DNA from: Oscillospiraceae bacterium
Lineage (GTDB): Bacteria; Bacillota; Clostridia; Oscillospirales; Ruminococcaceae
Assembly (NCBI GenBank): GCA_009777445.1
Contig: WRLV01000004.1
Location: 1-61,025 of the forward strand
Reading direction: 5' to 3'
Length of the DNA: 61,025 nt
The position numbers were made by a program, and so were the translations under genes. The notes below the pieces were generated by a model. That model had not been told where the DNA came from. It searched no databases and worked only from the letters and a program-made list of their open reading frames with translations. Positions within the stretch are counted from its first letter, which is position 1. Each line of letters opens with the position of its first letter. Shown here piece by piece: positions 40,282 to 61,025 of the stretch.

Positions 40282-40383
40282 TGGACAGTGGTGGTGTCGC
40301 CGTTGGCGACTTATTGAAATTTCAAATCCGTCCGCGTAAGCGGACACAATAACTGTCAATTGTCAATTGTCAATTGTCAATTG
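40259..40383. repeat. Two heptamer/hairpin elements between the HipA-like and P-type-like genes
   Basis: Left: TTGACAG/GTGGATA/GTGGACA heptamers, then GTCGCC-GTT-GGCGAC (40296-40310). Right: ATCCGTCCGC-GTAA-GCGGAC (40329-40344), then a CAATTGT array. As at 1433, the two hairpins face each other and have different stems. Confidence 0.9.
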
Positions 40384-43300: not shown

Positions 43301-43506
43301 TTACCGCGAAAAAGTTGGTTAAAGACATCTCATATTCAATAGCAACCGTAGTCATCGGCTCTTTCCTCGCGCTGATTTTAGGAACACTCTTCATGATGTT
43401 CGTAATGCCCGAAATGTTCAGCGCGACCACGATAATAGGTTACAACCTAAGTTGGTTGACAGTGATGTTGATTATACAGACTTTGAGGAAGTATAGGGAT
43501 GGGTGA
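40381..43506 (+). CDS. P-type-ATPase-like membrane protein lacking the phosphorylation motif
   Basis: About 1040 residues. The start is unclear: ATG 40360 lies in the repeat, so TTG 40381 or GTG 40393 is likelier. The first 450 residues are charged and probably disordered (FSVDEILAELDTD, repeated acidic and Lys-rich stretches). Then membrane helices and a region that follows the P-type layout: VDARLLFPAGCVAFRNIKLC where DKTGT is expected, GSRRILLGNRKQM like the N-domain, AIGGEAVAMFFIEVFSNPEI then SVVVRSCDSLITVAKIADVF where the TGD motif normally lies. No DKTGT is found, so catalysis is unlikely. A pair of helices ends the protein. Proposed as a pseudo-P-type ATPase of unknown role. Confidence 0.65.
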   Translation: MESVVRGLSDKNFSVDEILAELDTDGSDDSAMVTSPSFTDDILEALLNEPETPLKKEPLNEINETNVFTVEKPVAVAVEVDIEPREKEPKPKRKPLIKFPSKENKADKALFNKAKKMPKPLIEDIDDVVRAPIKEVEITPYKGTEAQFSVHDESADPHERRRRKNIEDTDNIEIFDDRYKPPKFSDTMNIPSDTRVIPPINREKQLKLLEEQTILKTDKQLEHHDDIIDGINPYEVIKKARKELSDIDIGDMEFGDLSGDTQGVVGDDLKQLASKVADKNQAEHITEEVGIKTYQPPEKKKKEDFSVTSIIDSVSDDTAALLGEINHAIKEREVMKKNTLPIGDKREIKPTTQTVTNVLTPQLNDLTQTGGSIPLNALNIDYQKQVLKDTTLVPQQDIADVQEKAEKLETLGEKRKRKIKSFMLEDLDDDDEYEDEEEVEEAEDFDGYDASEQIWEELRDSHRALNFRFFVLFIITGFLAVVTFCNDFGINLAYRVFGFDFVILDRRFEPIAHIVMQLVVGLMGLAVCKGVLVDGIKKLFLKRGDCDGICAASSLMATVGTAVALADPVAVKAGEAHIYIVVGMGALLFNTIGKLMMIRRAKHNFRFVAGDGAKYYGDIVSNSELADAFTKGVAEELPVLCTMRKTEFLSDFLKSSYCNDVADATSKTLTPIAFLASLLIGFIAFFFGIGDYTPQNNIVWSSTVCVGAMSAFSSFSIMLAVNNPFRRALKQLEKNDSVVLGYDSAMAFSAVNSVLVDARLLFPAGCVAFRNIKLCQNKTSLARVSIDEAIITAASLAIESGSILSSMFYDMVAGKKELLYDVEELIYEVNMGINGWIGSRRILLGNRKQMERHSVEIGSRDKERKYTKQNCDVVYLAIGGEAVAMFFIEVFSNPEIKRSMQKLYQNNTSVVVRSCDSLITVAKIADVFDIPPDKTKILNFNLHEKFEECTKYTSRGRGDLSCNGTFTSLATALITAKKLVKDISYSIATVVIGSFLALILGTLFMMFVMPEMFSATTIIGYNLSWLTVMLIIQTLRKYRDG

Positions 43507-43637
43507 TATATTATGTCAAGCATATTTTAAATTTTCACAAAACTTTCACATAACCATCACCATCAGCACACATAACGGCTTTACAATTAGATTACTAGTG
43601 TAATTATAATTGGAAAAATTGAAAAGAGGTGTATGAT

Positions 43638-43802
43638 ATGCATAATGAAAATTATGTTTTCATAAAGGACAATGATGGCAACCAATTAAGGTTTAGACGC
43701 ACGGACACTTTTTGCCCACGGTTGAAAAGTAGAGTAACATTTAAAGATACTGAAAGCGATGAGGTAGCACAAGACTCAAAAGAACAAAAACATATAAGTT
43801 GA
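43638..43802 (+). CDS. 54-residue protein upstream of the metallopeptidase-like gene
   Basis: AGAGGTG lies six bases before ATG 43638. The protein begins MHNENYVFIKDNDGNQLRFR and ends with an acidic-basic tail (TESDEVAQDSKEQKHIS). It has one cysteine and no membrane segment. It lies 76 bases before the next gene on the same strand. No family recognised; it may be a small regulator or partner of the large protein. Too short for routine ORF calls, but the ribosome site supports it. Confidence 0.6.
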   Translation: MHNENYVFIKDNDGNQLRFRRTDTFCPRLKSRVTFKDTESDEVAQDSKEQKHIS

Positions 43803-43878
43803 GTGTCTGTGTCCAAATTATTTTTGGGGGATTTTTGCCCCCTTAGTTTCGTATGCCCACAGAAAGGAATTATAAATC

Positions 43879-46251
43879 ATGTCAAACCCAAAGGGACATA
43901 TCTTGAAATTTTATAAAAAAATATCAGCACTTAGCTTTCTCGTTCCTAACAACAAATTTAATTTCACGATTTTCATGAATTTTGATGGAATATGTGTCGA
44001 AAACATTTATAAATACGAAGAGTTTTCTGATGTCAAAAAGTTCAAAGAAGACGATGCTTTTCTTCGTGCGCATTGTGAAATTCAAAAACTAAACGTGTAT
44101 TATTTGAATTCTGAGCACACGAACATTTTCTCTCATGGTGAAGGTTCTGAATTGTCTCCCCTTATTGCTGTCACACTCATTGATAAAGCCTCTTATAATT
44201 ACATGGAACGAGATGAATTGGTAGAAGAACTGAATAAAATTTCAGAGGAAGAAAACGGAAAAACTGGTTGTGAATATAAGTACGAGCTTTTAGGCACATT
44301 TTCTTCCGAAAGCTATGTGTTGGTGTCACGTAGCAACAGTTATGATACCATCTTTAACGTGCTTGAAAATTTGAGGGAAATAGAAGACTTTCCAACAAAC
44401 ACCATATACACGATTGTGGGTTTTGACCCACTATCTAAAAAAATAAGAGATTGGAACGATAATGACTTAGAGTTGTCCATTAGATTGCAATTAAGTTCTG
44501 CGGCTAAATTTAAAAACGTCTCTGACAAAATTGGAGACTTTGTCGATGTAAAAAAACAATATTTAACATTTGGAAAATTCGACCTTGGCGTTGTGGGCAA
44601 AGCTACTAACACGGAAAGCCTAATAAAACTATATGGAGATAAGGGCTTTCTTGATTTAAAAGATAGCGAAAGTGGGGTTTTATCATCTAACACCAGGTTC
44701 TTAAAAAGATTAGAAAAAAATAGCGCACAAAAAAACAAAGTCATTACGAAATACTCGGACATAACTACAAAGAAACCGTGGGATTCTAAATTTTATGGTG
44801 ACGGTCGTGGTGCAGACAATGAATTGAAAAGATTGATAATTCGGTTGACTCAAGCTCAAAACTCAGTGTTTTCCCAAAAGCAAGCAAAAAAAACGGTCGA
44901 AGAAATAAGAGACTTTGCCTTAAAAGCTTTGCAAAATAATGTAGAACCTAAGCCGAATAAAGAAGACATTTTGAGAATTATTAAGCATTTTAATACGCTT
45001 TTAGACAATCGTTTTACATATAACTTTAGGGATTTTGAGAGTCCTCAAGCAGATGTGCGTTGCGCCTATTCCAGTTCAAAAATATTGGTGGCATATGAGA
45101 ATTGCTTAAAAGTTTTCTTGAAAGGGGCAAACTATAGCGTTTATTCAAATTTAACAGTGGCTACATACATGGAAGTGACCGCTCACAAGGCTGCCTTTTA
45201 TAATAATTTGTATGTTTTTGTAGGCTTTCCGGTTGATTTTATCTACTATCCAAACTACGCTCTACCTCTTTTGGTACATGAAATGGGACATCAGATATTA
45301 GAGCATAAGCTAACCAGAATTTATAAAAAAGAATACGACAGTGTTATGTCGAATGTTTTAAACCTATTAGAAGATAAAGAAAGTAATATGGCGTATCCGG
45401 AGCAAATTTTTTCTGAATGTATCGCTGACATATTTATGGTTCGTGCTTTGGATATCACAGACTATAAAAACTATTTAGATGTAGTTGTTTGGTATTATTA
45501 TCAAGTTGATGATTCATTGATTAAAGAAAAAGAATTTTCCGTAGTGAGAATATTGGCAATTAGTATCTTTTTGAATATTAAGAAGTTGATAAAGGGTAAA
45601 GAAACTGATTTAAAATCCCATGAATTGTTTGAACTATACAAAAATGACATTAAGAAAGAGATAGAAAGTTATAAATTATATATAGAAAACAAGAAAAATA
45701 TAGAGGGCAAAGAAGAGCTACTGAAAGAATTACTCGGTTATATGTTAAATTGTTTTGAAATCACAAAAACAAAAGAAGACTCAAACTATCGTGAAATTGC
45801 TTCACTGATATACAAGTTTCTTTACGATGTTTGGAAAAAAGATGAAAGTATCTTGACTTTTAATAACGCTGGTATCAAAACTTTACAAAATAAATATACA
45901 AGCACTAAACACAATAAATTTGATGGGTTGACTCAGTTCGTAGAATTTTATACGTTTGACACATCTATTGCCTGCGTTGAGTTGAATGATAAAAAATACA
46001 GTTTAAGACAGGACGATAAACCAACGGAAATAGAGTTAGATTCTTTTGATATCAAAAAGATTAAAGTATTCACCGTTGAGAAAGAAGCCGAATTGGACGT
46101 AAAAGTAGCCTTATATTGTAAGATAGAAAATCGTGTTCCTGTTCCTTGTGATGATTTTGATATAAAAATCACAGTAAAACAAAACGGCAGGGAAGACAAC
46201 CAAACCACAAAAACTATTAAAATAGTGTTGAATGAAGAAAAGACTGATTAA
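43879..46251 (+). CDS. Large protein with a zinc-metallopeptidase HEMGH motif, unknown function
   Basis: 790 residues, no signal peptide or membrane helix seen. Around residue 470 stands LPLLVHEMGHQILEHKLTRI, an HExxH zinc motif, followed about 50 residues on by EQIFSECIADIFMVRALDI, a plausible third ligand (Glu) of a gluzincin. The N-terminal 450 residues hold several beta-alpha stretches (ESYVLVSRSNSYDTIFNVLE, NTIYTIVGFDPLSKKIRDW) with no assignable fold. AGAAAGGAATTATAA precedes the ATG. Codon use is markedly AT-rich relative to both neighbours, a sign of transfer. Terminator at 46370. Candidates: protease effector of a defence or toxin system, or a phage-derived enzyme. Confidence 0.7.
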   Translation: MSNPKGHILKFYKKISALSFLVPNNKFNFTIFMNFDGICVENIYKYEEFSDVKKFKEDDAFLRAHCEIQKLNVYYLNSEHTNIFSHGEGSELSPLIAVTLIDKASYNYMERDELVEELNKISEEENGKTGCEYKYELLGTFSSESYVLVSRSNSYDTIFNVLENLREIEDFPTNTIYTIVGFDPLSKKIRDWNDNDLELSIRLQLSSAAKFKNVSDKIGDFVDVKKQYLTFGKFDLGVVGKATNTESLIKLYGDKGFLDLKDSESGVLSSNTRFLKRLEKNSAQKNKVITKYSDITTKKPWDSKFYGDGRGADNELKRLIIRLTQAQNSVFSQKQAKKTVEEIRDFALKALQNNVEPKPNKEDILRIIKHFNTLLDNRFTYNFRDFESPQADVRCAYSSSKILVAYENCLKVFLKGANYSVYSNLTVATYMEVTAHKAAFYNNLYVFVGFPVDFIYYPNYALPLLVHEMGHQILEHKLTRIYKKEYDSVMSNVLNLLEDKESNMAYPEQIFSECIADIFMVRALDITDYKNYLDVVVWYYYQVDDSLIKEKEFSVVRILAISIFLNIKKLIKGKETDLKSHELFELYKNDIKKEIESYKLYIENKKNIEGKEELLKELLGYMLNCFEITKTKEDSNYREIASLIYKFLYDVWKKDESILTFNNAGIKTLQNKYTSTKHNKFDGLTQFVEFYTFDTSIACVELNDKKYSLRQDDKPTEIELDSFDIKKIKVFTVEKEAELDVKVALYCKIENRVPVPCDDFDIKITVKQNGREDNQTTKTIKIVLNEEKTD

Positions 46252-46407: not shown

Positions 46408-46543
46408 GCGGTAAATTCGGGACGACCCTACCCGCCCCCCAAATATTTTTAAAAACACACCACCAAAGGTACTTGAATTATGAGAGGATTTTTGGTATCA
46501 TTATAAGGATTGTATACACTTGTTTCTAAGAGGGGGTTGAACT

Positions 46544-47134
46544 ATGAAGTTGAAGTCGGAAACTTTTACCTGTTTTCACGAAATAGAACAAATACTTGAC
46601 AAAACAGAAGAGTTTGGTGAGCTTTGTGGGCTTTGTAATGCCGATAAGGCTAAGTTGCGGTTGTTGGCTGAGGAGATGTTGGGGCTTAATGTTCGCTTGT
46701 TTGATGAGTTGGAGTTTGAATTTTCGTTAAAAAACGAAGGCAACCGCTTTACCCTCAAGTTAAGCGTTAACACTGATGTAAGCGCGGAACAAAAGAGCCA
46801 AATTCTCTCGCTTGCAACTGACGGCAAAAACGCCGCACATAAAGGAATACTCGGCAAAATCAGCGGCGTGTTTTATGATATGTTGATGATTTCGGGCAAC
46901 GTAAATCCGAGCATGTCGCAAATGCCCATTACATACGGCGGTGTCGGGAATCTGATGTATTTTTCAATGAACGAATATCGCGAATGGCTTGCCAACGCGC
47001 CCACAGAAGAACAATGGGACGGCGTTGAAAAGTCAATCATCGCAAATATAGCCACCGATGTAAAAGTCGGGGTAAAAAACAATAAAGTCGAAATGACAAC
47101 GCTTGCAGATTTTTCTCTAAAGAAAGGATTCTAA
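46544..47134 (+). CDS. GHKL-ATPase-like protein paired with the antiporter
   Basis: 196 residues. TFTCFHEIEQILDKTEEFGE and KAKLRLLAEEMLGLNVRLFD look like the N-box helix of an RsbW-type ATPase (LAEEM in place of VEEIxxN), and FEFSLKNEGNRFTLKLSVNT the following strand; no clear DxG or GxG boxes are seen, so it may not bind ATP. GAGGGGGTTGAACT precedes the ATG. The antiporter gene starts four bases after its stop, so they are one operon. Proposed as a degenerate regulatory partner. Confidence 0.6.
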   Translation: MKLKSETFTCFHEIEQILDKTEEFGELCGLCNADKAKLRLLAEEMLGLNVRLFDELEFEFSLKNEGNRFTLKLSVNTDVSAEQKSQILSLATDGKNAAHKGILGKISGVFYDMLMISGNVNPSMSQMPITYGGVGNLMYFSMNEYREWLANAPTEEQWDGVEKSIIANIATDVKVGVKNNKVEMTTLADFSLKKGF

Positions 47135-47138
47135 CCCT

Positions 47139-49163
47139 ATGCAGACTTTTGTATTTATCTTAGTTCTCTTGACGGCGGTTTTGGTTTCCAACCCGATTAA
47201 CCGCTTTGTTCCTGTTTTGTCTGTTCCGATTGTTCAGATTATTTTAGGGGCTTTAATCACTTTTATTCCCTTTAGTGAGTTTGGGTTTGAATTTGAGTTT
47301 GAGCCCGAATTCTTCTTTGTTTTGTTTATCGCGCCGCTGATTTTTCACGCGGGCATGATGTTTGACAAGCGAACCATGCTTAAAGTTTTGGGGCCTATAC
47401 TGTCATCGGCGTTTTTGTTAGTGTTTATATCGGTGCTCGCTATTGGGTTTTTATTAAATTTTTTAGCCCCCGTTATTCCGTTGGCGGTAGCCTTTGTCTT
47501 AATCGCCGCGCTCAGCCCCACCGATGACGTTGCAGTAGATGCGGTGACAAAGCAAGCGGCAGTCCCTAAAAAAATCATGACTATTTTGTCGGGTGAGTCG
47601 GTCATAAATGATGCTTCGGGAATTGTCAGCTTTCAGTTCGCTGTGTTAGTCGTTACGACGGGCGTTTTTTCGCCGCTTCACATGGCTGAGGATTTTATTT
47701 TGATTGGTTTGGGTGGAATAGCAATCGGCGTTGCTTTCAGCGGGCTGAAATATATAATCGTGAAATGGCTGCGTAATGTGGGAATTGAAAACGCGACTTT
47801 ACATATTCTTTTAGGGATTTTAAGCCCGTTTGTTATTTTCATAATCGCGCACAGACTTCATCTAAGCGGAGTGTTGGCAGTGTTCGCCTCGGGGTTAATT
47901 CACTCGTTAGTTCAAGACAAATTTAACCCCGACTCGGTAAAATTACATATTGCCGGCGAGAGTGTTTGGAAAGTTCTCTCTTTCTCTCTTGAGGGGATTG
48001 TCTTTATCTTGTTGGGGTTACAGTTGCCGGGGATTTTAAAAGACTTAACGGACCACCAAGATATTCATGATGTAAACGATGGCTCAATCATAGTTCTCAT
48101 TTTATTACTGACTCTCGCTTTCGCTGTTCTTCGTTTTATATGGTGGATTGTCACCGTTCGCCCCGTTAAATATGAAGAGCAAGACATTCCAACCGAACCG
48201 AAAATAGGCAGAATTCGCTCAGGGTTGATTTTCAGCCTTTCCGGGGCAAGAGGGACGGTTACTTTAGCCTGTATACTGTCGGTGCCGCTTACGCTTTCTG
48301 ACGGAAGCCCCTTCCCCGAAAGAGAGTTGCTCATTTTGTTAGCGAGTGGGGTAATAGTCTGCTCTTTGCTGATTACGAACTTTTTATTGCCACTTGTCGC
48401 CAAAAAGGAAGAGAAACACTCTCAAGCATATGAGCAGGTTCATGCCGAAATCGTTCAAGGGGTAATTGCGCGGCTCTTATCTGATGCAAACGACAAAAAC
48501 CACCAAGAAATTTCAGTCATAGTTGACCATTACAGAAAACGTGATATTTTAAGACACGGGCATTATAGCCGCAAAACAAGAAAAGCAGAAGAAAATTTGA
48601 GAGGGCAAATTCTTTTGTGGGAAAAAGAAAACACGCTGAACATGCTAAAAAATAAAACCGTTGATGAGAGCGCGGCGCGTTATTTTCTCAAACGCTTAGA
48701 AACAATCGAGCTTGCAAAAAAATACGGTTTACTCTATAAAATAGTGTCGTTCTTAAAACAGCGAAAAGCTAAACCGGAGGGTGACATTCCCGAAGAAATA
48801 ACAAGCAGCATGAAAATAGCCGAGTTGAATTTCAAGGCAATTCGCGAGGGTAACGCGCTGTTTGTTTTAGACAAACTAAAGGCCGCCAAAACCGATGAAA
48901 ACGGCGATGCCGTTGACAGGTTGCGCGCTTTCTATGAGCTGTCACACAAATTAGCGGAATCAATTCAACAAAGTGCTTATAACGTCTCGCGCGAAACTAA
49001 AAAGAGGGGCAACTCTTTAGTCATCGAGGTTGCCGCAAAGGCCTTTAAAATCGAGAGAGGGCTTATTCAAGAAATGCTTGAAGTCGGAAGAATTTCAAGA
49101 GAAACCGCCAAAGAAATGCGCTCTAATATTATCGCGATGGAAGCACGTACAATTAACAATTGA
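47139..49163 (+). CDS. Na+(K+)/H+ antiporter, CPA1 family
   Basis: 674 residues: about 12 membrane helices in the first 420, then a 250-residue cytoplasmic domain of helices. AALSPTDDVAVDAVTKQAAV and SGESVINDASGIVSFQFAVL carry the ND-type ion-binding Asp residues of the CPA1 group. It exchanges Na+ or K+ for H+ and sets cytoplasmic pH. AAGAAAGGATTC precedes the ATG. The end TINN and TGA come from the heptamer array of the next element. Confidence 0.92.
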   Translation: MQTFVFILVLLTAVLVSNPINRFVPVLSVPIVQIILGALITFIPFSEFGFEFEFEPEFFFVLFIAPLIFHAGMMFDKRTMLKVLGPILSSAFLLVFISVLAIGFLLNFLAPVIPLAVAFVLIAALSPTDDVAVDAVTKQAAVPKKIMTILSGESVINDASGIVSFQFAVLVVTTGVFSPLHMAEDFILIGLGGIAIGVAFSGLKYIIVKWLRNVGIENATLHILLGILSPFVIFIIAHRLHLSGVLAVFASGLIHSLVQDKFNPDSVKLHIAGESVWKVLSFSLEGIVFILLGLQLPGILKDLTDHQDIHDVNDGSIIVLILLLTLAFAVLRFIWWIVTVRPVKYEEQDIPTEPKIGRIRSGLIFSLSGARGTVTLACILSVPLTLSDGSPFPERELLILLASGVIVCSLLITNFLLPLVAKKEEKHSQAYEQVHAEIVQGVIARLLSDANDKNHQEISVIVDHYRKRDILRHGHYSRKTRKAEENLRGQILLWEKENTLNMLKNKTVDESAARYFLKRLETIELAKKYGLLYKIVSFLKQRKAKPEGDIPEEITSSMKIAELNFKAIREGNALFVLDKLKAAKTDENGDAVDRLRAFYELSHKLAESIQQSAYNVSRETKKRGNSLVIEVAAKAFKIERGLIQEMLEVGRISRETAKEMRSNIIAMEARTINN

Positions 49164-49211
49164 CAATTGACAATTGACAATTGTGGAGTCGCCGTTGACG
49201 ACGGATTTAAA
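49149..49211. repeat. Heptamer/hairpin element at the antiporter 3' end
   Basis: Four TTGACAA-type heptamers (49153-49182), then GTCGCC-GTT-GACGAC (stem with one mismatch, 49189-49203) and the usual GGATTTAAAAT flank. It leads straight into the next gene's ribosome site. Confidence 0.88.
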
Positions 49212-49223
49212 ATGGGAGGTTTT

Positions 49224-49934
49224 ATGTTAAAAATTATAGCTAAGACTATTTGTGTTCTACTTATTATTGCGTTGGTGGGGTGTGTTAATGTTAGTGAGTC
49301 GCCGACGTTGGAGAGTGCTGTTCCTTCGGGGTTTGTGTTGGTTACTGATGTTATTCCAGACGCAATATTGGAAATTCGTTATTATAGCACATATAATTTT
49401 GTGGGTGAACGGATTGACGACTACTTGGCCCCTGTCGCAATTTTAAGCGAGCAAGCCGCAAACGCGCTCAAGTCAGTGAATGACGAGCTTCGCGCTCAAG
49501 GCTATGCCGTTAAAATATTCGATGCTTATCGACCGCAAGGGGCGGTTGCGCATTTTGTCCGCTGGGCTAATGACTTGAATGACATTACAACCAAAGAATT
49601 TTTTTACCCCGACATTGATAAAGACCGCATTATTCCCGACCGCTATATTATGGAACGTTCGGGTCACTCACGCGGCAGCACTGTGGATTTAACCCTCATC
49701 GACATGAAAACAGGCAAAGAGCTTGATATGGGGACACCTTTTGACTTTTTCGGGCTTCCCTCTCACCACGACACCGACTTGATAACAAGTGAACAAACAG
49801 CCAACCGCTTAATCCTAAAAAACGCAATGGAAAAAGCAGGCTTCTTGCCGTATGACGAAGAATGGTGGCACTATACCCTTGACAACGAGCCGTTCCCTGA
49901 CACCTATTTTGAGTTCCCTGTGAAAAATTATTAA
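49224..49934 (+). CDS. D-Ala-D-Ala dipeptidase VanX-like lipoprotein
   Basis: 236 residues. ATG 49224 follows GGGAGG; the frame upstream reads the repeat. Signal with lipobox LVGC (VLLIIALVGCVNV). IFDAYRPQGAVAHFVRWAND, ERSGHSRGSTVDLTLIDM (zinc His and Asp) and DEEWWHYTLDNEPF (catalytic Glu and zinc His) mark an M15D peptidase. It cleaves D,D-dipeptides; as a lipoprotein it would act outside, on peptidoglycan fragments, rather than as a resistance enzyme in the cytoplasm. 23 bases before the ABC transporter gene. Confidence 0.92.
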   Translation: MLKIIAKTICVLLIIALVGCVNVSESPTLESAVPSGFVLVTDVIPDAILEIRYYSTYNFVGERIDDYLAPVAILSEQAANALKSVNDELRAQGYAVKIFDAYRPQGAVAHFVRWANDLNDITTKEFFYPDIDKDRIIPDRYIMERSGHSRGSTVDLTLIDMKTGKELDMGTPFDFFGLPSHHDTDLITSEQTANRLILKNAMEKAGFLPYDEEWWHYTLDNEPFPDTYFEFPVKNY

Positions 49935-49957
49935 ATTTTTGAAAGGTTTAATGGAAA

Positions 49958-52162
49958 ATGTATATTAAGAAAGCCGCGTTGTGCATTTTTATTTCTCTTA
50001 TTATTGCACTGTCGGGTTGTGTCGACAGTGGTGTGGGAGGAAGTGAACTCTCTGAGTTTAATGCCGATGACTGGGTAGGTAAAAAATTAGGCTTAGTCAC
50101 CGGAATGGTCTATGACAAAATTATGGCGGAACATATTCCCGGTTCTGAACCGCTTTTCTATATCAACATGGCAGACGGGATTGAAGCAATGAAAAACGGC
50201 AGAATTGACGGCTTTATCGCCAACAGCGTGGCACTTATAAGACAAAGTATTCAAACACCCGATGTAAGGGTGCTTGAACCGTATGTTACCAACGAAAGTT
50301 ACGGGGCAATTGTCGCAAAAGGCAATGTGCAATTGCGAGAACAACTTAACGAATTTATAACGCTTATTAACTCTAACGGGGTTTTTGAAGAGATGAAAGA
50401 ACGGTGGATTTTGTCTTCCGAAACGCCGATTATGCCCGACATTCCGGTGGGTAGCGGCGAGGTGTTGAGATATGTAACGGGTGGAACAACAGACGGATTT
50501 TCATATTATTCAAACGGCGAAATATCGGGTTTTGATGTCGAGTTCGCGAAAAGATTTGCGGCATTTATTGACAGAAAACTCGAAATATCAGTTACGGAGT
50601 TTGCCGGTTTAATCACTGCTATTCAAACGGGGAAATATGACTATGCCGCCAATTCTCTCACCATAACTGAAGAGAGAGCGGAGATGGTTGACTTTACAAT
50701 CCCCTACTACAACGGCGGCGCGGCGATTGCCGTATACTCTCCTTCATGGCAACAAAGTGTTTTTAATAAAGACGATTTTGAAGGAAAATCGTTCGCCATA
50801 ATAACCGGCTCAATTTGGGACACTTTGCTTGATGAAAACATTCCCACCGCCGTGCAAGTCCACTTTAACTCTTTTCCCGAGTCAATTATGGCGTTGAAGT
50901 TGGGCAAGGTTGATGCGACTTTTATCGTGGCTTCTTTGGCTGAAAAGTACGCCGTTATATATCCCGACTTAATATATCTGAAACCACCCTTTTTTGAAAC
51001 AGACATAGCGTTTATATTCGGAAAGCATAATCTCGCGCTAAGAGATGATTTTAACAGCTTTATGCGCGAAATACGCGAGAACGGCATGTATGACGAAATA
51101 AAAGGACGATGGTTAGGAAGCGGTGCCGACACGCCGGATATGCCCGAATTTGAAAATAAGGGGACTGCCGGAAAACTCGTTTTTGCCACCACAGGTGAGG
51201 CTGACCTTTTCACTTTTGTTCAAAACGGAAAGCCGGCAGGCTTTGAAGTCGAGTTGGCATATCGCTTTGCCGAACATATGAATATGGAGCTTGACATTCA
51301 ACTGATGGAATTTTCGGCAATAATCCCCAATGTTGATTCAAAATCCGATTTCGCCGGCTCAAATATCTCTGTTACAGAAGAACGCGCTAAGACGGTTGCT
51401 TTTTCAGAGCCGGTTTATAGAGAAGGGCTGTTAGTCGCCGTCAGAAACGAACAATATCAAAGTTCATCGGGTTTTTGGGAAGGAGTTGCGGCATCGTTTG
51501 AGCGCAACCTAATCCTTGAAAACCGTTGGAAGTTAATTGTTGACGGATTGGGTATCAGCATGGTTATAACTATTGCCGGTTTTGCGTTGGCAACGCTCTT
51601 AGGCTTCGCTGTCTGCGGCTTAAGAATGAGCAAAAACGCGTTGTTAAGAATGCTCGGAACTTGTTACATAACGGTGTTGAGAGGTACGCCTGTCGTTGTG
51701 TTGTTGATGATATCATTCTATGTGATTTTCGCAAAGAGCACGATTGACGCGGTTACAGTTGCTATTATAGCCTTTGGCGCGAACGGCGCGGCGTTTATCG
51801 GTGAAATTATCAGAAGCGCGATTTTAACCGTAGACAAAGGTCAAATTGAGGCGGCAAGAAGTATGGGCTTTTCTAAAATCGGGGCGTTCTTCACCGTGAT
51901 TTTCCCTCAGGCGGTTAGAGTTGCGTTCCCGGTCTATATGTCAGAGTTCATTTCTTTATTTAAAATGACTTCTGTTGTGGGTTATATCGCTATTGTTGAC
52001 TTGACTAAGGCCGGCGACATTATACGAAGTCGCACATACGATGCCTTCTTCCCGTTGATTGTGGTGGCACTTGGATATTTGATTTCGGCATCGATTATGA
52101 TTTGGCTGTTTAATTTAATCAACCGAAAAACTGATAAGCGTTCAAAGAGAGGTGCGCGATGA
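49958..52162 (+). CDS. Amino-acid ABC transporter: fused multi-lobe binding protein and permease
   Basis: 734 residues. Lipoprotein signal ([13 protein letters not shown]). Then a second-lobe segment ([20 protein letters not shown], about 40-150), a full SBP_bac_3-type domain (first lobe [20 protein letters not shown]; second lobe [20 protein letters not shown], to about 388), a first-lobe segment ([20 protein letters not shown], about 400-500) and a HisM/GlnP-type permease (about 520-730, [38 protein letters not shown]). The order half-full-half looks like two binding domains rearranged. Overlaps the ATPase gene by four bases. Polar amino acids are the likely substrates. Confidence 0.9.
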
Positions 52163-53226
52163 TAAAAATTACGAATTTAAATAAGTCCTACGGCGGTGTT
52201 GAGGTAATCAAAGACATTACCACCACTATTGAACGCGGAGAAATCATAACTATTATAGGAACGTCCGGTACGGGGAAAAGCACTTTTTTGCGTTGTTTAA
52301 ACCTATTAGAACAACCAACAAGCGGCGTGATTGAGTTCGATGGCAAAAACCTCACCGACAAGAAAACAAACATCAACGAAATACGCAAACGAATGGGAAT
52401 GGTTTTTCAAAACTTCAACCTGTTTGCGCATATGAGTGTTATGGAAAATCTTTGTGTGGGGCAGATGAAACTACTCGGGCTTACACGTGAGCAGGCGCGT
52501 GAAAACGCCTTGAACCTTCTTTCGATGGTGGGGCTTGCCGAAAAGGCTGATGCTTATCCCGATGAGCTGTCGGGCGGGCAAAAACAACGGGTGGCTATTG
52601 CGCGATGTTTATCTATGAAGCCTGATATAATGCTGTTTGACGAGCCAACCTCCGCGCTTGACCCGACTATGGTCGGCGAAGTCACAACAGTGATTAAACG
52701 GTTAGCGCAAAACGGAATGACTATGGCTATAGTTACCCACGAGATGGAGTTCGCCAAAAACGTTTCAACACGCGTGATTTATATGGACGAGGGCAGCATA
52801 TATGAACAAGGGACACCGAAGCAAATATTTGAAGAACCCAAACGAGAAAAGACTCGCGCTTTTATCAGAAAAATCAAGAAATTCCGCTATGAACCAAGCA
52901 GTGAGCATTTTGATTTTATCGCGCTTAACAACAGCCTGTTAAACTTTTGTTCGGCAAACGCGCTGACAAAATCAGACTCTAATAAAGCAGGTTTAGTCAC
53001 AGAAGAGCTGACAGTTAACCTGATTGAGAAACGCGATTTTGAGAGCCTTGAATTCAGCTTCCCCGATAACCAAAAAGAGTTTGAAATTTCGGTGAGCTAC
53101 GGCGGAGAGCAAAGAGACGTTACAAAACGCGAGGGCATTGAAACCGACATTATTAAAGGCATTGTCAAAGAGACAAAATATAATTTTGACACAACTAACA
53201 AACTTATCTTGAAATGGGGAAGCTGA
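52159..53226 (+). CDS. ABC transporter ATPase with a C-terminal RsbW-like domain
   Basis: 355 residues. Residues 1-245 are a GlnQ-type ATPase: Walker [21 protein letters not shown], signature [17 protein letters not shown], Walker [14 protein letters not shown]. Residues about 250-355 add a domain similar to the RsbW-like tail of the next gene ([40 protein letters not shown]), which keeps the EE of the N box but lacks a clear DxG box. Starts inside the permease gene (ATGATA); ends four bases before the MATE gene. Fusion of a transporter ATPase to a GHKL-like domain is unusual. Confidence 0.88.
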
Positions 53227-53230
53227 GAAG

Positions 53231-54961
53231 ATGGGGGACAGTGGGAAGTTTATTCGTGGGTTGTATGGCAAGATGGCGTTGTTTTCTACCATCGCGCTTG
53301 CCGGCAACTTCTTGGCGCAAATTGCAGGAACGCTGATTGCCGGAAACATTTTGTCGGACACTGCCCTGAGCGTTGTGGGAATAGCCACACCCGTTTATTA
53401 CGTTTACGGGGCGGCAGGCGCGATGCTCGGCATAGGCTGTGCTACACTGTGCGCCAATCATATCGGGAAGTCAGAGTTTAACGAATGTCGCCGTGTCTTC
53501 ACATTAACTTATATATTGGTTTTCGTTTTCGCCATTATTCTTACCGCTATTTTTTGGGTGTTCATAGAGCCTATTACAGAGCTTTTAGGGGCAAGCAAAG
53601 AAAATTTCGAGAGCGTTAAAGATTATTGCCTTACTATGTCGGCAGGGGGCGTTGGTGTTATGCTCATCTTTCCTGCCTTCGGGATTCTCCGCATAGACGG
53701 CAAAAATAAAACCGCCGCAGGAATATTCATCATGTCCGGCGTTATAACCGTCGCGCTGACTTATGTCTTCATTGTTTTTTACGACATGGGGGTGGCAGGT
53801 GTCGCCGCCGCAACCTGTATAGGGGGCGCGCTTGCAGGAATAGTGGGCGGCGTTGCGATTTTCGTCAAAAGCAAGAATTTCAAGCTATTAAATCCGGTCT
53901 ACCCACTCAAATCATCAAAGGGTATAATCATAGCCGGCACACCGGGGGCATTAGAATATTTTTGTTTTTTCGCGTGTATGTTGGCACTTAATAATTTATT
54001 ATCTGTGCGCTTCGGCGATTCGGCGGTGGCGGCTTATAAAATCACCGAGTCAATCAATTCTTTGTCTTTAATATTTATTTGGGGAATAGCCGGGCCTGTC
54101 ACCCCTTTGTCCGGCGTTTTTGGGGCAGAGCGTGACACTAAAAGTTTGCGCGATGTTCTTAAACTTTCACTTCGCGCCGGGCTTTGGCTTGTTTTGCCGC
54201 TAACTGCACTTTTGTTTGTTTTCGCGCCTGACATCACCGCAATTTTCGGCATGGGGACAAGAGACACGGCTTATGCCGTGAGGGTGTTCTCGTTGAGTAT
54301 ACCGCTTTCTCTTTTAACCCAGTTGTTAATATATCTTTATATGGGTGAAAAGCGCGTGTTTTTAGCCAACGTTCTTATGGCGGCACGCATGGCACTGTGG
54401 GTAATCGTGGCGGCTCTTCCGCTATCTGCTATTGGCTATGATGCGTTTTGGTGGTGTTTTGTCGCGGCGGAACTTCTGACAATTTTAACCGCGTTAACTC
54501 TCTCATTTATTTCTCGAAAGGGCAACAAAAACCTTATACCCGTCCTCTTAACCGACATATCCGCCGAACGTGACGGGCGATATATTTCACTCTCTACCAA
54601 ATCTGACGGCGTGGGAAATGCCGCCGCAACCGTTGCGGACTTTTGTGAGCAAAACGAGCTCTCACCTAAGACAAGCATGTCGGTTTCTTTGGCGGTTGAA
54701 GAAATGTTGGTGGTGATTTTTGAAAAGAGCAAGCCCGAAAGCTTAAACGTCAGGGTCTTAATCGTTGAAGACACCGACATCATTGTTTTGCGTGTGCGTG
54801 ACAACGGAAAGTTGTTTAACTCAATCGACTACGCGCTTAAAGCAAGTGCCGATGAAGCACTTGACGTTATGGGAGTGAAAATGATTTTAAAGTTAGCCGT
54901 CAGCGTAGACTATCGAAATACATTCGGGGTAAACAACACTACGATTATTATTAAAAAATAA
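53231..54961 (+). CDS. MATE-family transporter with a C-terminal RsbW-like ATPase domain
   Basis: 576 residues. Residues 1-435 form a 12-helix MATE transporter (KMALFSTIALAGNFLAQIAG, AGTPGALEYFCFFACMLALN). Residues about 450-576 form a GHKL domain: NAAATVADFCEQNELSPKTS, VSLAVEEMLVVIFEKSKPES (N box), LRVRDNGKLFNSI (DxG box), GVKMILKLAVSVDYR. This is the same class of kinase domain as at 8732. It would lie in the cytoplasm. It follows the ABC ATPase by four bases and is followed by the phosphatase gene by 24. Confidence 0.9.
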   Translation: MGDSGKFIRGLYGKMALFSTIALAGNFLAQIAGTLIAGNILSDTALSVVGIATPVYYVYGAAGAMLGIGCATLCANHIGKSEFNECRRVFTLTYILVFVFAIILTAIFWVFIEPITELLGASKENFESVKDYCLTMSAGGVGVMLIFPAFGILRIDGKNKTAAGIFIMSGVITVALTYVFIVFYDMGVAGVAAATCIGGALAGIVGGVAIFVKSKNFKLLNPVYPLKSSKGIIIAGTPGALEYFCFFACMLALNNLLSVRFGDSAVAAYKITESINSLSLIFIWGIAGPVTPLSGVFGAERDTKSLRDVLKLSLRAGLWLVLPLTALLFVFAPDITAIFGMGTRDTAYAVRVFSLSIPLSLLTQLLIYLYMGEKRVFLANVLMAARMALWVIVAALPLSAIGYDAFWWCFVAAELLTILTALTLSFISRKGNKNLIPVLLTDISAERDGRYISLSTKSDGVGNAAATVADFCEQNELSPKTSMSVSLAVEEMLVVIFEKSKPESLNVRVLIVEDTDIIVLRVRDNGKLFNSIDYALKASADEALDVMGVKMILKLAVSVDYRNTFGVNNTTIIIKK

Positions 54962-54985
54962 ATCGAAAGGCATGGTCTGAAAAAA

Positions 54986-56965
54986 ATGAAAACGTCTATA
55001 CAAAAGAAAATAGCAAGCGCGTTTGTGGTGGTGAGTGTGTTGGCTCTCGTTGCGAGCGGCGTGCTGTCTATGCTTCAATTGCGTGAAATACGAGATATAG
55101 CAGAGGAAGCACTGATTGATTTGTCGCGCACTGACTTAAAGGATTTGGCGACTGAAAAGGGTTCGTCAATCAACTCGCGGCTTCAATTATATGCTGATAA
55201 ATTGAGCATAATGGCAATTTATTCCGCAGACTTATATGTCAACCCCGACGATTATTTAAAAAAACCGGTTCCCTTTTATCTTGACATGCCGCCGGGTGAA
55301 CCCGGGTTGCACTACTTCCCCGAGCCGTGGGCAGAGCCTTCTTTGCTTGAAGAAGAAACCATGCTCTTAGCCAACTCCGCTAAGATTTTCGCGGTTGTAA
55401 TGGAAAGATTCCCGGAAATAACAACGATTTGCATTTCAACCGACACAGGGCAAAACTTGCAGTTCGACTCTGCCGCGGCGCAAAAACAAGACGTTATTGA
55501 ACAAGGCTTTTCTTCTCATACCCGCGAGTGGTATATAAGAGCGAAAGAGAAAAAAGAAATGCCTACGGTTATTATATCCGACACCTATCGTGATGCCGCA
55601 GGGCGTGGGCTTACAATCACTATGAGCAAGGCGATTATGGCAAACGGTGAGTTCAAGGGCGTTTTGGCGTTTGATATTCTCATAGATGATTTAGATAAAC
55701 GTTTGCGCAGTGAAGTGGTGGGAACAGGCGGGCGCATTGAACTCATCGGTGTCGACAAGGTTATTTCAAGTCAAGGCTTGACTACTGAAAACGAACATGA
55801 ACTTCCTGAATATTGGGAGGCCGTCAGCACCTCTGTTACAGGCACGGCAATTTCGGGGGACTATTATATAGCCTGGAGCCGCATTGGTCTCACCGGTTGG
55901 AAGGTTGTTCTTTTAGTCCCCGAAAGCGAAATAACCGCCCCTGTAGAACGCGCAGACAAGGAAATATATGAATCGCTTTTAGAAATCGGCATGCTTTTAA
56001 TTGCAATCGTATTGCTGACTGTTTATGTGGCGTTTTTATCCGCACGAAGGATTGCCGCGCCGCTGTTAGCTTTAGCAAAAGATGCTGAAAAAATCGGTAA
56101 AGGCGATGACATTGAGCTATCGGCGAAAACAGGTGACGAAATAGAAGTTTTGGCAGGCACAATCAATGAAATGCTTATAAACATCAAAACCATAACCGGT
56201 GAAAAAGAAAGAATAGGGGCAGAATTAAATGTCGCCACAAATATTCAAGCCAGCATGTTACCGCATATATTCCCTCCGTTCCCTGAAAGAACTGACGTTG
56301 ATTTGTTCGGCACTATGGAACCGGCAAAAGAAGTCGGCGGCGACTTCTATGATTTCTTCCTTATTGACGACAACACCCTTGCGGTGATTATGGCTGACGT
56401 TTCGGGCAAGGGCGTTCCTGCCGCGCTGTTCATGGTAATTGGAAAGACGTTAATCAAGAATAACGCTCAAATGGGAAAAAGCCCCAAAGAAGTGTTTGAG
56501 ACAGTCAATAATATCCTTTGTGAAAATAACGATGCCGATTTATTTATCACCTGTTTTATGGGTTATCTCGACTTAAAGACAGGGGAGTTCACCAGTGTTA
56601 ACGCAGGGCATAATCCGCCCCTTATCGGAACTAATGGCAAATTTAATTATTATAAAACCAAAATCGGCTTTGTTTTGGCAGGAATGGAGGGTACGCGTTA
56701 CACACAAGAGACGGTTAAGTTAAAACCCGGAGATTCTCTCTTCCTCTATACAGACGGTGTCACCGAAGCCGATAACCATGCGAAAGAACTTTATGGTGAG
56801 AAGCGATTGAACGACATTTTAAACTCCTGCACAAGCGAAGAGGTGAAAGAAACCTGCCTTTATGTTCGACACGATGTTGAAAAATTTGTCGCAGGCGCGG
56901 AACAAGCAGATGATATTTCTATGCTTGTGTTAAAATATTTAGGGCAGGAGGGCACACAGAGTTGA
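54986..56965 (+). CDS. Membrane sensor PP2C (SpoIIE-type) serine phosphatase
   Basis: 659 residues. Membrane helix about 12-33; an extracytoplasmic dCache-like domain (about 35-320, with EWYIRAKEKKEMPTVIISDT and FKGVLAFDILIDDLDKRLRS); second helix about 328-350; HAMP (LLALAKDAEKIGKGDDIELS, about 352-405); then the SpoIIE/PP2C domain: EVGGDFYDFFLIDDNTLAVI, MADVSGKGVPAALFMVIGK, SVNAGHNPPLIGTNG and FLYTDGVTEADNHAKELYG, with the metal Asp residues. It should dephosphorylate STAS proteins in response to an external ligand. It overlaps the NRPS gene start by four bases. Confidence 0.93.
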   Translation: MKTSIQKKIASAFVVVSVLALVASGVLSMLQLREIRDIAEEALIDLSRTDLKDLATEKGSSINSRLQLYADKLSIMAIYSADLYVNPDDYLKKPVPFYLDMPPGEPGLHYFPEPWAEPSLLEEETMLLANSAKIFAVVMERFPEITTICISTDTGQNLQFDSAAAQKQDVIEQGFSSHTREWYIRAKEKKEMPTVIISDTYRDAAGRGLTITMSKAIMANGEFKGVLAFDILIDDLDKRLRSEVVGTGGRIELIGVDKVISSQGLTTENEHELPEYWEAVSTSVTGTAISGDYYIAWSRIGLTGWKVVLLVPESEITAPVERADKEIYESLLEIGMLLIAIVLLTVYVAFLSARRIAAPLLALAKDAEKIGKGDDIELSAKTGDEIEVLAGTINEMLINIKTITGEKERIGAELNVATNIQASMLPHIFPPFPERTDVDLFGTMEPAKEVGGDFYDFFLIDDNTLAVIMADVSGKGVPAALFMVIGKTLIKNNAQMGKSPKEVFETVNNILCENNDADLFITCFMGYLDLKTGEFTSVNAGHNPPLIGTNGKFNYYKTKIGFVLAGMEGTRYTQETVKLKPGDSLFLYTDGVTEADNHAKELYGEKRLNDILNSCTSEEVKETCLYVRHDVEKFVAGAEQADDISMLVLKYLGQEGTQS

Positions 56966-59235
56966 GCCTTATAGATTATTTGACAAAACAGGCGAAAGAA
57001 CGCCCTGAACAAGCGGCACTTGTGTGCGGCAACGAAAGTCTCACATATCGTGCTCTTGATGAACTTTCGACACGCGCCGCCTACGGCTTGACAAAAATCG
57101 GCGTGCAAAAGGGTGAGTGTATCGGGATAAGCACAGACCACGATATTCAAACGATTTTAGCGGTATTCTCTGTCATTAAAGCGGGTGGAATGTTTGTCCC
57201 ACTAAGCCCGTCTTTGCCTTATGCGAGAAAGACTTTTATCAAAAACAACGCACAAATAAAAGTGGACTTTGGTGTAAACGCCGACGTTTTTAAGCTCAGC
57301 GAGACAAGGCATGAAATACATTTGCTTAAACCAAAAGGCGATGAGCCGTTAGCTGTTATGTACACATCGGGCAGCACCGGTGAACCTAAAGGCGTTATAT
57401 TACTACACAAGAATCCGCTTGCCGCACCAAGACATTACAACAAAATCATGAAAATAAATGCTGCTGACAATGTCGCTAACTATGTGAGTTTGTCCTTCAT
57501 CGTGGCACTCAATGATATTGCATATGCACTTGAGGCAGGGGCAACCTTGCATATTATTCGCGACGACATTCGGCTTGACGTTCGCGCTGTTGCCGACTAT
57601 TTTAACAAAAATAATATAGTTTCCGCTCTTATGCCGGTGTCGTTCGGGCGTTGGCTTGCTGACGAGACGAAGCTTGAAACCTTGAAATCGTTGGGGCTGT
57701 GTGGTGAGCGATTTAAAGCCCCGAAGCCTGAAAATCGTGAGGGCTATGAAGTTTTCAATATATACGGCACCACCGAAATTTGCGGAGCGCAATTTGCAGG
57801 GCGAGAAGCCGTCATGCCGATGGGCGACATAAAGGCTGAACTTGATAAAAATATTCTAACCGTGTCGGGGGATTGTGTCGCTTATGGTTATATCGGCGGC
57901 GCGAACTTTAACGGAAGTTACAGCACGGGCGATTTAGCGGAACAAACGCGCGATGGTTTTCTAATCAAAGGGCGAGAAGATTTTCAGATTAAATTGCGTG
58001 CTTATCGCATTGAACCAAACGATATTGACATGAAGATTTTAACCGTAAACGGCGTGAACGAGAGTGTCACCGTCAAGTCAAACGAGCGGCTTGTGAATTT
58101 TTTCAGCGGAACCGCTCTAATAGATGACATAAAGGCAAAATTAACTGAGCAATTGCCGAAATATATGCTTCCGAGTGAGTTTATAAGGCTTGAGAGCCTT
58201 CCGAAAACGCTGACGGGAAAAATTAACAGAGCCGCACTACCGTCTTGCGAATCGTCATCGGAGTCCTTAATTAACACCCTGCACACACAAACAGAAAAAC
58301 GCTTAGCGACTATTTGGGTAGACATTTTGGGAATGTCTTTGAGCAGTATCAGCGCGCACGATGACTTTGAGTCGTGTGGCGGCGACAGTTTGCGTTTGGT
58401 TATATTGTCGATTGAAATTGAAAAGCAATTCGGCATAACAATAACCCCGTGGGAATGTCTCAAAGCAAAGACAATCCGCAAACAGGCAAAGCTTATCGAA
58501 GCATTAACAAGCAGTGTGCCGACAACCACCGTTGGCAACCCACGTGTGTGTGTCCTCAATCAAGGCTTTCAGGACAGCGCGAAAGACACGCCGTTGTGGT
58601 TTGTTCACACGGCTAACAGCGGGCCCGAGGTTTATCGGAAATTCGCAAAAACTTTGCCGCAAAACCGCCCTTTCTTTGTATTTGAAAATCATAATATGTT
58701 GTTTGGAAATTCTCATTTTGAGGGTATTCGCGAACTTGCTTCAAGGTATATAAACGAGCTTCCCAAAGCGGACTTTTATCATTTAGGCGGCTGGAGTTTC
58801 GGGGGCGTTATCGCGTTTGAAATGGGGTTGCAGTTACAGCGGCGCGGCGTTATAAGCCGACTGTTTTTAATCGACCCGCTCATCGGAGAAACAGCTTTAG
58901 CCACCCCCAACAAAACAGACTATCGAGCATATTTAGAGTCAGACCCTCTATTTGAAAGGTTCAGAGCAATGGGCTTGATTGACAAACTCGAACGAAACAA
59001 CGCTTTCGTCCTCAACGAAATAGCAAACTACCGCCCGTCAGAAACATATCACGGAGAAGCAGTTCTGTTCAGAATGACGTTAGACAACCAAGACAGGAGT
59101 TCCACCAAAACCAAAGCCCCCGACAACGGCTTCGGGAACTTCACAAAGAATTTGAAAATAATAAACATAAACCAAACCCACGACAACGCGATGATAGATG
59201 ATGAGTCGTTGGGTGTTATTTGTGAAGAGTTGTAA
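56962..59235 (+). CDS. Single-module NRPS: adenylation - carrier - thioesterase
   Basis: 757 residues. TTG start within the phosphatase stop (TTGA), with GGAGGG ten bases upstream. Adenylation domain (about 1-430): AVMYTSGSTGEPKGVILLHK, FNIYGTTEICGAQFAG, YSTGDLAEQTRDGFLIKGRE and the terminal PKTLTGKINRAAL lysine. Carrier (about 435-510): DDFESCGGDSLRLVILSIEI, the Ser being the phosphopantetheine site. Thioesterase (about 520-757): FYHLGGWSFGGVIAFEMGLQ nucleophile. No condensation domain, so it may load and release one amino acid, dimerise it, or feed another enzyme. Last gene of the unit, which then stops before foreign DNA. Confidence 0.9.
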   Translation: MSLIDYLTKQAKERPEQAALVCGNESLTYRALDELSTRAAYGLTKIGVQKGECIGISTDHDIQTILAVFSVIKAGGMFVPLSPSLPYARKTFIKNNAQIKVDFGVNADVFKLSETRHEIHLLKPKGDEPLAVMYTSGSTGEPKGVILLHKNPLAAPRHYNKIMKINAADNVANYVSLSFIVALNDIAYALEAGATLHIIRDDIRLDVRAVADYFNKNNIVSALMPVSFGRWLADETKLETLKSLGLCGERFKAPKPENREGYEVFNIYGTTEICGAQFAGREAVMPMGDIKAELDKNILTVSGDCVAYGYIGGANFNGSYSTGDLAEQTRDGFLIKGREDFQIKLRAYRIEPNDIDMKILTVNGVNESVTVKSNERLVNFFSGTALIDDIKAKLTEQLPKYMLPSEFIRLESLPKTLTGKINRAALPSCESSSESLINTLHTQTEKRLATIWVDILGMSLSSISAHDDFESCGGDSLRLVILSIEIEKQFGITITPWECLKAKTIRKQAKLIEALTSSVPTTTVGNPRVCVLNQGFQDSAKDTPLWFVHTANSGPEVYRKFAKTLPQNRPFFVFENHNMLFGNSHFEGIRELASRYINELPKADFYHLGGWSFGGVIAFEMGLQLQRRGVISRLFLIDPLIGETALATPNKTDYRAYLESDPLFERFRAMGLIDKLERNNAFVLNEIANYRPSETYHGEAVLFRMTLDNQDRSSTKTKAPDNGFGNFTKNLKIININQTHDNAMIDDESLGVICEEL

Positions 59236-60652: not shown

Positions 60653-61025
60653 TCGGAAACTACCCATAAAATAATTCAAAATTAATAATACCGCAAATTA
60701 AATTCATGCGAAGGCTGTGTCTTTTTCTGCGGTTGCGATATTTATTCGCCATAATTTTAAATACTTTAATTTTAGCATTAACATTCTCGACTAAGATTCT
60801 CTCTTGCGAAATACGTTTGTTATCAGCCTTTTCGCTTCTCGTCAATTTACCATTCTTGGGTTTTTTCTTAGGAGTTTCGCTGTTTTTATGAAACTCCAAA
60901 ATTCCTTGAAAACCACTGTCGCCTTGAAACTTAATCCTTTCCAAAATTGCTGCACCGATTTCATCTTTATACATCTTGAAATCGTGCGTTGAGCCCATTG
61001 CTTGATAGGTGGCGATAATCGCCCC
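60640..61025 (-). mobile_element. Insertion sequence of IS5 type, partial
   Basis: One end lies near 60640-60655 (GGAAACTACCC next to the transposase stop), interrupting the integrase. The other end is outside the window. The plus strand reads TTCGGAAACTACCC at the junction, like a terminal repeat, but without the second end this cannot be verified. Confidence 0.7.
60660..61025 (-). CDS. IS5-family DDE transposase, C-terminal part (partial)
   Basis: The frame runs off the window at 61025 and continues into AIIATYQAMGSTHDFKMYKD, so its start is outside. FQGDSGFQGILEFHKNSETP, KKKPKNGKLTRSEKADNKRI, RILVENVNAKIKVFKIMANK and YRNRRKRHSLRMNLICGIIN correspond to the D and E regions of DDE_Tnp_4-type IS5 transposases. 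The stop is at 60658-60660. Confidence 0.85.
   Translation of the reverse strand, partial: GAIIATYQAMGSTHDFKMYKDEIGAAILERIKFQGDSGFQGILEFHKNSETPKKKPKNGKLTRSEKADNKRISQERILVENVNAKIKVFKIMANKYRNRRKRHSLRMNLICGIINFELFYG

Follow-up and report, generated by a model that had tools for sequence, protein, structure and literature searches.

The 61,025-nucleotide stretch analysed here (the window; contig WRLV01000004.1, assembly GCA_009777445.1, of an Oscillospiraceae bacterium) holds a run of genes in which two transport proteins, the ATPase of an amino-acid-type ABC importer and a MATE exporter, end in tails related to RsbW-type GHKL kinases, beside a membrane PP2C phosphatase. We read these genes, with a probability of about 0.5, as a partner-switching system whose outputs are the transporters. 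The parts, their recurrence in other genomes and the degenerate state of the tails are sequence results, while the action of the switch on transport is what we infer from them, at about even odds. Loci mapped in other genomes are cited by L numbers, and contigs of the window's own assembly by C numbers.

The MATE exporter (53231-54961, + strand) matches PF01554 and PF13581 above their cut-offs and has full-length relatives. Its tail (54605-54946, +) carries the PF13581 (HATPase_c_2) match at residues 460-572 (31.7 bits, cut-off 27.4), and the MATE tails as a set reached an hhalign probability of 99.6 against RsbW domains. On these comparisons, it is an RsbW-type GHKL domain. The ABC ATPase (52159-53226, +) is of the GlnQ type (PF00005; 295.7 bits with the GlnQ model, under its cut-off of 379), and its tail spans residues 243-355 (52885-53223, +). 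Pfam matched nothing there, from about residue 243 to the C-terminus. Fourteen such tails combined in a profile gave a probability of 97.9 to RsbW domains over 105 columns and 99.1 to MATE tails, with a maximum of 2.0 for decoys from seven unrelated families. Some of the 14 had been selected by RsbW-type profiles, so a comparison with two tails (the window's and that of L138) is the cleaner test; it gave 92.9 to MATE tails and 3.1 to RsbW directly. By profile comparison, the ATPase tail is GHKL-like. An earlier note on this DNA had claimed RsbW-like tails on both transporters and proposed a check with HATPase_c_2 hidden Markov models. The ancestry stands for both, through Pfam for the MATE protein and profile comparison for the ATPase, but the Pfam model itself detected only the former. 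A tail as the common ending of GlnQ ATPases was rejected: 8 recognised tails were found among 30 loci and 22 loci had none, one of which (L309, open frame 1186 or 860 aa) may be miscalled.

Residues of the ATP site set these tails apart from RsbW domains found alone or fused to other enzymes. The N-box Asn and the G1 Asp are both kept in 19/20 stand-alone RsbW proteins, 14/14 APH fusions and 11/11 PP2C fusions, 44 of 45 overall, compared with 38/69 MATE tails and 0/14 ABC tails. Each window tail lacks one of the two. In the MATE tail, the N-box reads EEMLVVI from residue 490, with Val replacing Asn and the G1 Asp kept; in the ABC tail, the G1 box reads SVSYGGE from residue 311, with Tyr replacing Asp and the N-box Asn kept. 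The N-box Glu is near-invariant (67/69 MATE and 14/14 ABC tails), and the C-terminal Asn is kept in 68/69 and 11/14, respectively. Because each window tail lacks one ATP-site residue, we infer that these tails bind rather than phosphorylate; they look like STAS-docking receivers, not kinases. The earlier idea that the tails form the kinase arm of the switch was not borne out by these residues, which also make control of phosphorylation by uptake state less likely than control of transport by phosphorylation.

Tailed transporters recur in other genomes. MATE proteins with a tail were counted by hand, among the matches listed, in at least 32 of 297 genomes of the order, own genome included, using a 17-protein profile with four candidates scored per genome. 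Among these matches, full tailed proteins scored at least 350 bits and plain MATE proteins at most 318, with one exception at 255 bits (genome G299). At E ≤ 1e-100, such proteins were found in 23/293 class-level and 8/299 phylum-level genomes, two sets that both contain the own genome and overlap partly. In the tree, the rows nearest to the window's MATE protein belong to family f2. The window's ABC tail has relatives (E ≤ 0.001) in 10/394 order genomes, again including the own genome, which holds a second tailed ATPase (L174). Close relatives lie in WRKO01000006.1 and WRIZ01000045.1, from Oscillospiraceae metagenome-assembled genomes of the window's order, and in WRLD01000026.1, from a Defluviitaleaceae metagenome-assembled genome. 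Most mapped tailed-ATPase genes adjoin a fused binding protein-permease gene, the exceptions being L180 and the second importer of L182. As a side observation, tailed ATPases mostly occur with permease-fused binding proteins and five mapped tail-less ones with separate genes. The second importer of the own genome occupies 3312-5959 of contig C79, a short contig with no switch genes.

The tails are linked to switch genes more often than chance, as judged by a tail-less control. Of the order-level loci for tailed MATE proteins, 32/49 have a STAS, SpoIIE-type PP2C or RsbW gene within 4.5 kb, as do 11/20 held-out class-level loci, versus 0/20 tail-less MATE loci (Fisher p 2.5e-7 and 1.5e-4, respectively, uncorrected for kinship). 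The held-out loci, 20 of 27 places outside the order, were not used in building the detection profiles. Loci of near-identical genomes were kept (e.g., L039 and L109), so the rows are not independent. The 49 loci exclude L058, whose MATE protein has no recognisable tail; the controls were taken in list order, skipping five too near a contig end and L056, and the plain MATE loci L055-L057 stand outside the control count. For tailed ATPases, 7/11 loci have one of the three genes within 4.5 kb, with L182 counted twice and L180 and L153, which have no focal tailed ATPase, uncounted. A stand-alone STAS gene sits just upstream of the tailed MATE gene on the same strand in 15/49 order, 2/20 class and 2/6 phylum loci and in L289 (1/1); for 12 of these 15 order loci the distance is at most 26 bases. 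Within the genus, the window's type of RsbW occurs in 8/9 genomes with a tailed MATE protein versus 9/26 without (p 0.007; hand count, uncorrected for kinship). Of the earlier claims, the recurrence of transporter tails in other genomes and their linkage to partner-switch PP2C genes were supported. One tail-less GlnQ-type ATPase (L327) also has STAS and RsbW genes close by.

The most complete relative is L289, from the same genus. One tight run there (gaps 1, -4, -4, -40, 15, 3) encodes STAS, tailed MATE, GH3 ligase, HAMP-PP2C, RsbW, binding protein-permease and tailed ATPase. Identity to the window is 30% for STAS, 26% for MATE, 50% for the catalytic half of PP2C, 49% for RsbW, 40% for the binding protein-permease and 51% for the tailed ATPase; the GH3 ligase has no counterpart in the window. 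Pfam missed both tails of L289, which the tail profiles detected. L332, also of the genus, combines RsbW, PP2C, binding protein-permease and a tailed ATPase whose ATPase domain is 82% identical to the window's. L243, from another family, carries tailed MATE, PP2C, GNAT, RsbW, binding protein-permease and tailed ATPase. In L182 and L177, a STAS-PP2C-RsbW set adjoins the tailed ATPase. L138 (family f2) holds VanX-like, STAS, g1 (a relative of the first gene of the window's run), binding protein-permease, tailed ATPase and LD-carboxypeptidase genes, its tailed ATPase being 73% identical to the window's over the whole protein. Runs joining a nonribosomal peptide synthetase (NRPS) and a tailed MATE protein with switch genes occur in L125 and L240, and L299, from another class, holds PP2C, STAS, a STAS-condensation protein, NRPS and tailed MATE. 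In L182 (2182-10776), two importers with tailed ATPases flank one STAS-PP2C-RsbW set; the second tail is nearer to RsbW, and the binding protein and permease of that importer are separate.

The best candidates for the switch pair of the window lie far from the run, on the opposite strand. A STAS protein whose motif SSAGL would supply the phosphorylatable Ser of such a switch (9153-9452, -; PF01740, 62.2 bits) would be the shared switch protein, and an RsbW-type candidate kinase (8732-9136, -; PF13581, 77.7 bits) retains the N-box Asn, G1 Asp and G2 Gly. In the assembly, which is 91.57% complete, PF01740 found two STAS genes, 9153 and one on contig C51. Next to the latter are another RsbW-type gene and one of 236 aa, a set that we take to be the sporulation operon spoIIAA-AB-sigF. 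Stand-alone RsbW-type genes with PF13581 above its cut-off are those at 8747, on C51 and on C28, in addition to the MATE tail; the C28 gene has no adjoining STAS. With the other genes eliminated, 9153/8732 is the best candidate and the only pair found outside sporulation, so the earlier choice of 9153 as possible partner still holds. The assembly has four PP2C genes (PF07228), and that of the run scores highest (171 bits versus 61, 52 and 22). A BRO-N domain gene (8321-8728, -; PF02498, 37.1 bits, cut-off 25.6) directly follows the pair.

Within the genus, the near relatives of 9153/8732 include members of STAS-g1-RsbW and PP2C-RsbW runs, and the pair is thereby tied to g1, which opens the window's run (46544-47134, +; 196 aa) and matched nothing in Pfam or NCBIfam. 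Two more STAS-g1-RsbW runs are L255 and L257. Relatives of g1 at E ≤ 0.01 occur in 22/245 order genomes, own included. Besides the window's own, the mapped loci contain 19 distinct g1 proteins; 17 of them have a STAS gene within 4.5 kb, and most also PP2C and RsbW, which places g1 among the partner-switch genes. In L137, L147 and the window, no STAS lies within that distance of g1. The N-terminal part of g1 is possibly GHKL-derived, with a suggestive fold link to the ABC tails (hhalign 83.9 over 59 columns). Its value against RsbW was 8.6, and g1 as a certain GHKL domain was rejected. In L153 (9336-10523), a g1 relative is fused to a glyoxalase-like domain, and the run there also holds STAS, PP2C, lactate/malate dehydrogenase and CstA.

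The phosphatase (54986-56965, +) has the Pfam order dCache_1-HAMP-SpoIIE (PF07228, 167.4 bits), and its claimed identity as a sensor PP2C was confirmed by Pfam along with that of the fused binding protein-permease. It carries GGDFYD, MADVSGKG, LYTDGVTEA and ADDISML, presumably the metal-site motifs. The SiaA model gave 56.7 bits against a cut-off of 700. The sensor stretch (55508-55909, +) was aligned to solved dCache domains. The amino-acid motif of PctA comprises Y121, R126, W128, Y129 and D173, and the CahR-type autoinducer-2 (AI-2) motif comprises R126, W128, Y144, D146 and D173 in PctA numbering (PMC10104139, PMC9540692). Positions carried over by eye through other solved dCache domains, with PctA itself outside the alignment, align R180, W182, Y183, Y201, D203 and D230 of the window protein with these motifs as given there. 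All AI-2 positions are kept (R180, W182, Y201, D203, D230), and the amino-acid motif is kept except for Phe175 at the Tyr121 position. The motifs overlap, so the AI-2 match does not decide the ligand; an amino-acid-like ligand would fit the family of the importer alongside.

The last gene of the run (56962-59235, +, TTG start) encodes adenylation, peptidyl carrier and thioesterase domains (A-PCP-TE; PF00501, PF00550, PF00975; alignment to LgrA). Pfam found no condensation domain in it, as an NRPS elongation module would have, which makes it an A-PCP-TE tridomain enzyme; of its earlier description as a one-module NRPS, the three domains stand. Its adenylation pocket has Ile180 where LgrA has Asp, the equivalent of Asp235. 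This Asp is the mark of alpha-amino-acid substrates, and its replacement makes an ordinary alpha-amino acid an improbable substrate. A-T-TE (adenylation-thiolation-thioesterase) tridomain synthetases act on alpha-keto or aryl acids; they share the domain order and likewise lack Asp at the amino-group position, but the window's enzyme has no close relative in the order. No A-PCP-TE relative was found at E ≤ 1e-70 in the 294 other order genomes, with at most three candidates scored per genome, so that more distant ones may exist, and the synthetase as a core part was rejected since only the window has it among 295 at that threshold. A plasmid search with it returned 1525 records, all under 60% identity (best about 27%). 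Adenylation-domain genes do occur near tailed MATE proteins, at 6/49 order and 5/20 class loci versus 0/20 controls. The proposed link of synthetase and exporter has precedent in these counts, whereas the A-PCP-TE gene itself, the least conserved of the parts, stands outside the conserved system. It seems to be a locally chosen ligase, in a position that GH3 or NRPS takes in other genomes. More broadly, a small-molecule enzyme (GH3, adenylation domain, GNAT, formyltransferase, APH-type kinase or unknown family) lies on the same strand within 3.5 kb of the tailed MATE gene in 23/49 order, 10/20 class and 2/6 phylum loci and in L289 (1/1). Neighbour assignments were verified by Pfam on examples. 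Of 92 unassigned run neighbours, 82 were scanned (seven over 900 aa and three short or at an edge were left out). Acetyltransferases were the commonest families, LytTR regulators appeared in 2 of the 82, and the 25 most frequent of 87 Pfam families included no sigma-factor family, although rare ones could escape.

These parts suggest the following mechanism. The dCache domain would bind an extracellular amino-acid-like ligand and control the PP2C, which would dephosphorylate a STAS protein, in the window probably 9153. A separate RsbW kinase (8732) would rephosphorylate it. In its unphosphorylated form, STAS may dock on the kinase-derived tails of both transport proteins, which are probably kinase-dead, and so alter transport by the importer and the MATE exporter. 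The small molecule exported by the MATE protein would come from the ligase encoded alongside, an A-PCP-TE enzyme here and GH3 or NRPS in other genomes.

Several findings weigh against this mechanism. The window's own run contains no STAS or RsbW gene, nor does either lie within 4.5 kb of g1. None of the three switch genes lies within 4.5 kb of 17/49 order and 9/20 class loci for tailed MATE proteins, some of which are cut by contig ends. Within about 1.5 kb, switch genes accompany 3/8 tailed versus 1/22 tail-less ATPases, and the window is not among the three. The 38 of 69 MATE tails with both ATP-site residues may include active kinases. Loss of the N-box Asn in MATE tails seemed to track a nearby PP2C in raw counts (24/35 versus 7/34, p 9e-5), but this association disappeared once the tree was taken into account (6 changes; p about 1 for independent pairs) and was rejected.

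The transporters could instead be the sensors, their tails sequestering or releasing STAS or RsbW according to transport activity and so setting a switch elsewhere. Trigger-transporter schemes are a precedent for this idea. Binding without catalysis would suffice, which fits both the degenerate tails and the linkage, and a distant target is conceivable for the STAS and RsbW of the window, whose genes lie outside the run. However, the PP2C already has its own external sensor, and no sigma-factor family appeared among the 25 most frequent families near tailed MATE proteins. We consider this direction possible but rather unlikely. It is decidedly unlikely that the tails are relics or stability modules in an ordinary set for cell-wall or amino-acid scavenging with a metabolite exporter. 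The VanX-like genes, the LD-carboxypeptidase beside the importer in L138 and the 17 MATE loci without a nearby switch gene favour such a set, but the tails persist across classes with a near-invariant N-box Glu and C-terminal Asn, and the control MATE loci show no linkage (0/20). That the tails are active RsbW-type kinases phosphorylating STAS against the PP2C, as first proposed, is highly improbable: many of the 38 MATE tails with both residues have no separate RsbW nearby, but both window tails miss one residue, no ABC tail keeps both, and separate intact RsbW genes exist.

A wider reading, in which the STAS-GHKL pairing is a phosphorylation-controlled coupler that docks STAS-tagged enzymes on GHKL-tagged transporters, is tentative and on balance unlikely. 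It was suggested by STAS-APH fusions (20 distinct proteins, 14 also with RsbW and 6 without) and the STAS-condensation protein of L299. If true, the making and the export or uptake of a small molecule would form a single regulated unit. In the L299 protein (1355-2944), STAS is joined to an NRPS-type condensation domain; its gene has PP2C/STAS genes on one side and the NRPS and tailed MATE genes on the other. STAS-APH-RsbW fusions recur with g1, STAS and PP2C in L111, L113, L114, L116, L139, L140, L143-L146 and L148.

Compared with known systems, the partner switch read here shares PP2C, STAS and RsbW-type kinase with their family motifs with RsbU-RsbV-RsbW and SpoIIE-SpoIIAA-SpoIIAB. The targets of RsbUVW-type switches are sigma factors bound by RsbW (PMC11418112), whereas here RsbW-derived domains are fused to transporters. 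SiaABC of Pseudomonas aeruginosa is a demonstrated switch with a non-sigma target (PMC7647112). SiaABCD likewise has a membrane PP2C with HAMP, a separate kinase and a STAS-like protein, but there the switch acts on a diguanylate cyclase, SiaD, and not on a transporter that ends in a kinase-derived tail. SulP/SLC26 transporters carry a STAS domain (PMC8256260) and thus also fuse a partner-switch domain to a transporter; they fuse the STAS half, whereas here the kinase half sits on unrelated transporters with STAS in trans. The importer part itself resembles a familiar design. GlnPQ-type amino-acid importers have tandem binding domains fused to the permease, and the window has the same binding domains, permease and ATPase, the latter with an added GHKL tail. 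We found no description of a transporter-acting partner switch in the open-licence literature, a weak negative, as subscription journals lie mostly outside it and "mate" is ambiguous.

The run comprises eight genes (46544-59235, all +). The last five (49958-52162, 52159-53226, 53231-54961, 54986-56965 and 56962-59235; gaps -4, 4, 24, -4) have the positions, single strand and spacing of at most 24 bases first described, but three more genes precede them, which moves the start of the run to 46544 (gaps after these genes 4, 3, 23). After g1 come a CPA1-type Na+/H+ antiporter (47139-49163, +; PF00999, 178 bits; TIGR00831, 301.1 bits, cut-off 279.6), whose profile matched no mapped locus other than the window, and a member of the VanX-like D-Ala-D-Ala dipeptidase family M15 with a TTG start (49167-49934, +; PF01427, 130.3 bits; 201.8 bits with the VanX model, under its cut-off of 320). 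VanX-like genes are also present in L138, L111/L149, L113/L150 and L146. The importer gene before the ATPase (49958-52162, +) fuses tandem solute-binding domains (PF00497 in three stretches) to a polar-amino-acid ABC permease (PF00528). The first start codon is preceded, at a distance of 42 bases, by a promoter-like site with its end at 46501; with 37 such sites in the region versus 23.6 (standard deviation 4.8) in shuffles, a single site means little.

Upstream, a HipA-like gene (39112-40281) is followed by two large open reading frames of 1048 aa and 790 aa, without Pfam domains above cut-off. This stretch (39112-46251) includes the window's lowest GC content (0.375 at 42001-46000). Downstream of the run, near the contig end, a reading frame at 60660-60998 (-) reads by eye like the end of a transposase.

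Partner switching is known for the control of sigma factors and a few enzymes. What we propose would vary this principle rather than add another. If the reading is true, the switch would act directly on membrane transporters, an output of a new kind, with the former kinase half serving as receiver on the transporter. L289, with all seven genes in one operon, lends itself directly to tests in vitro. Such a switch would work after translation and let these bacteria adjust nutrient uptake and metabolite export quickly.

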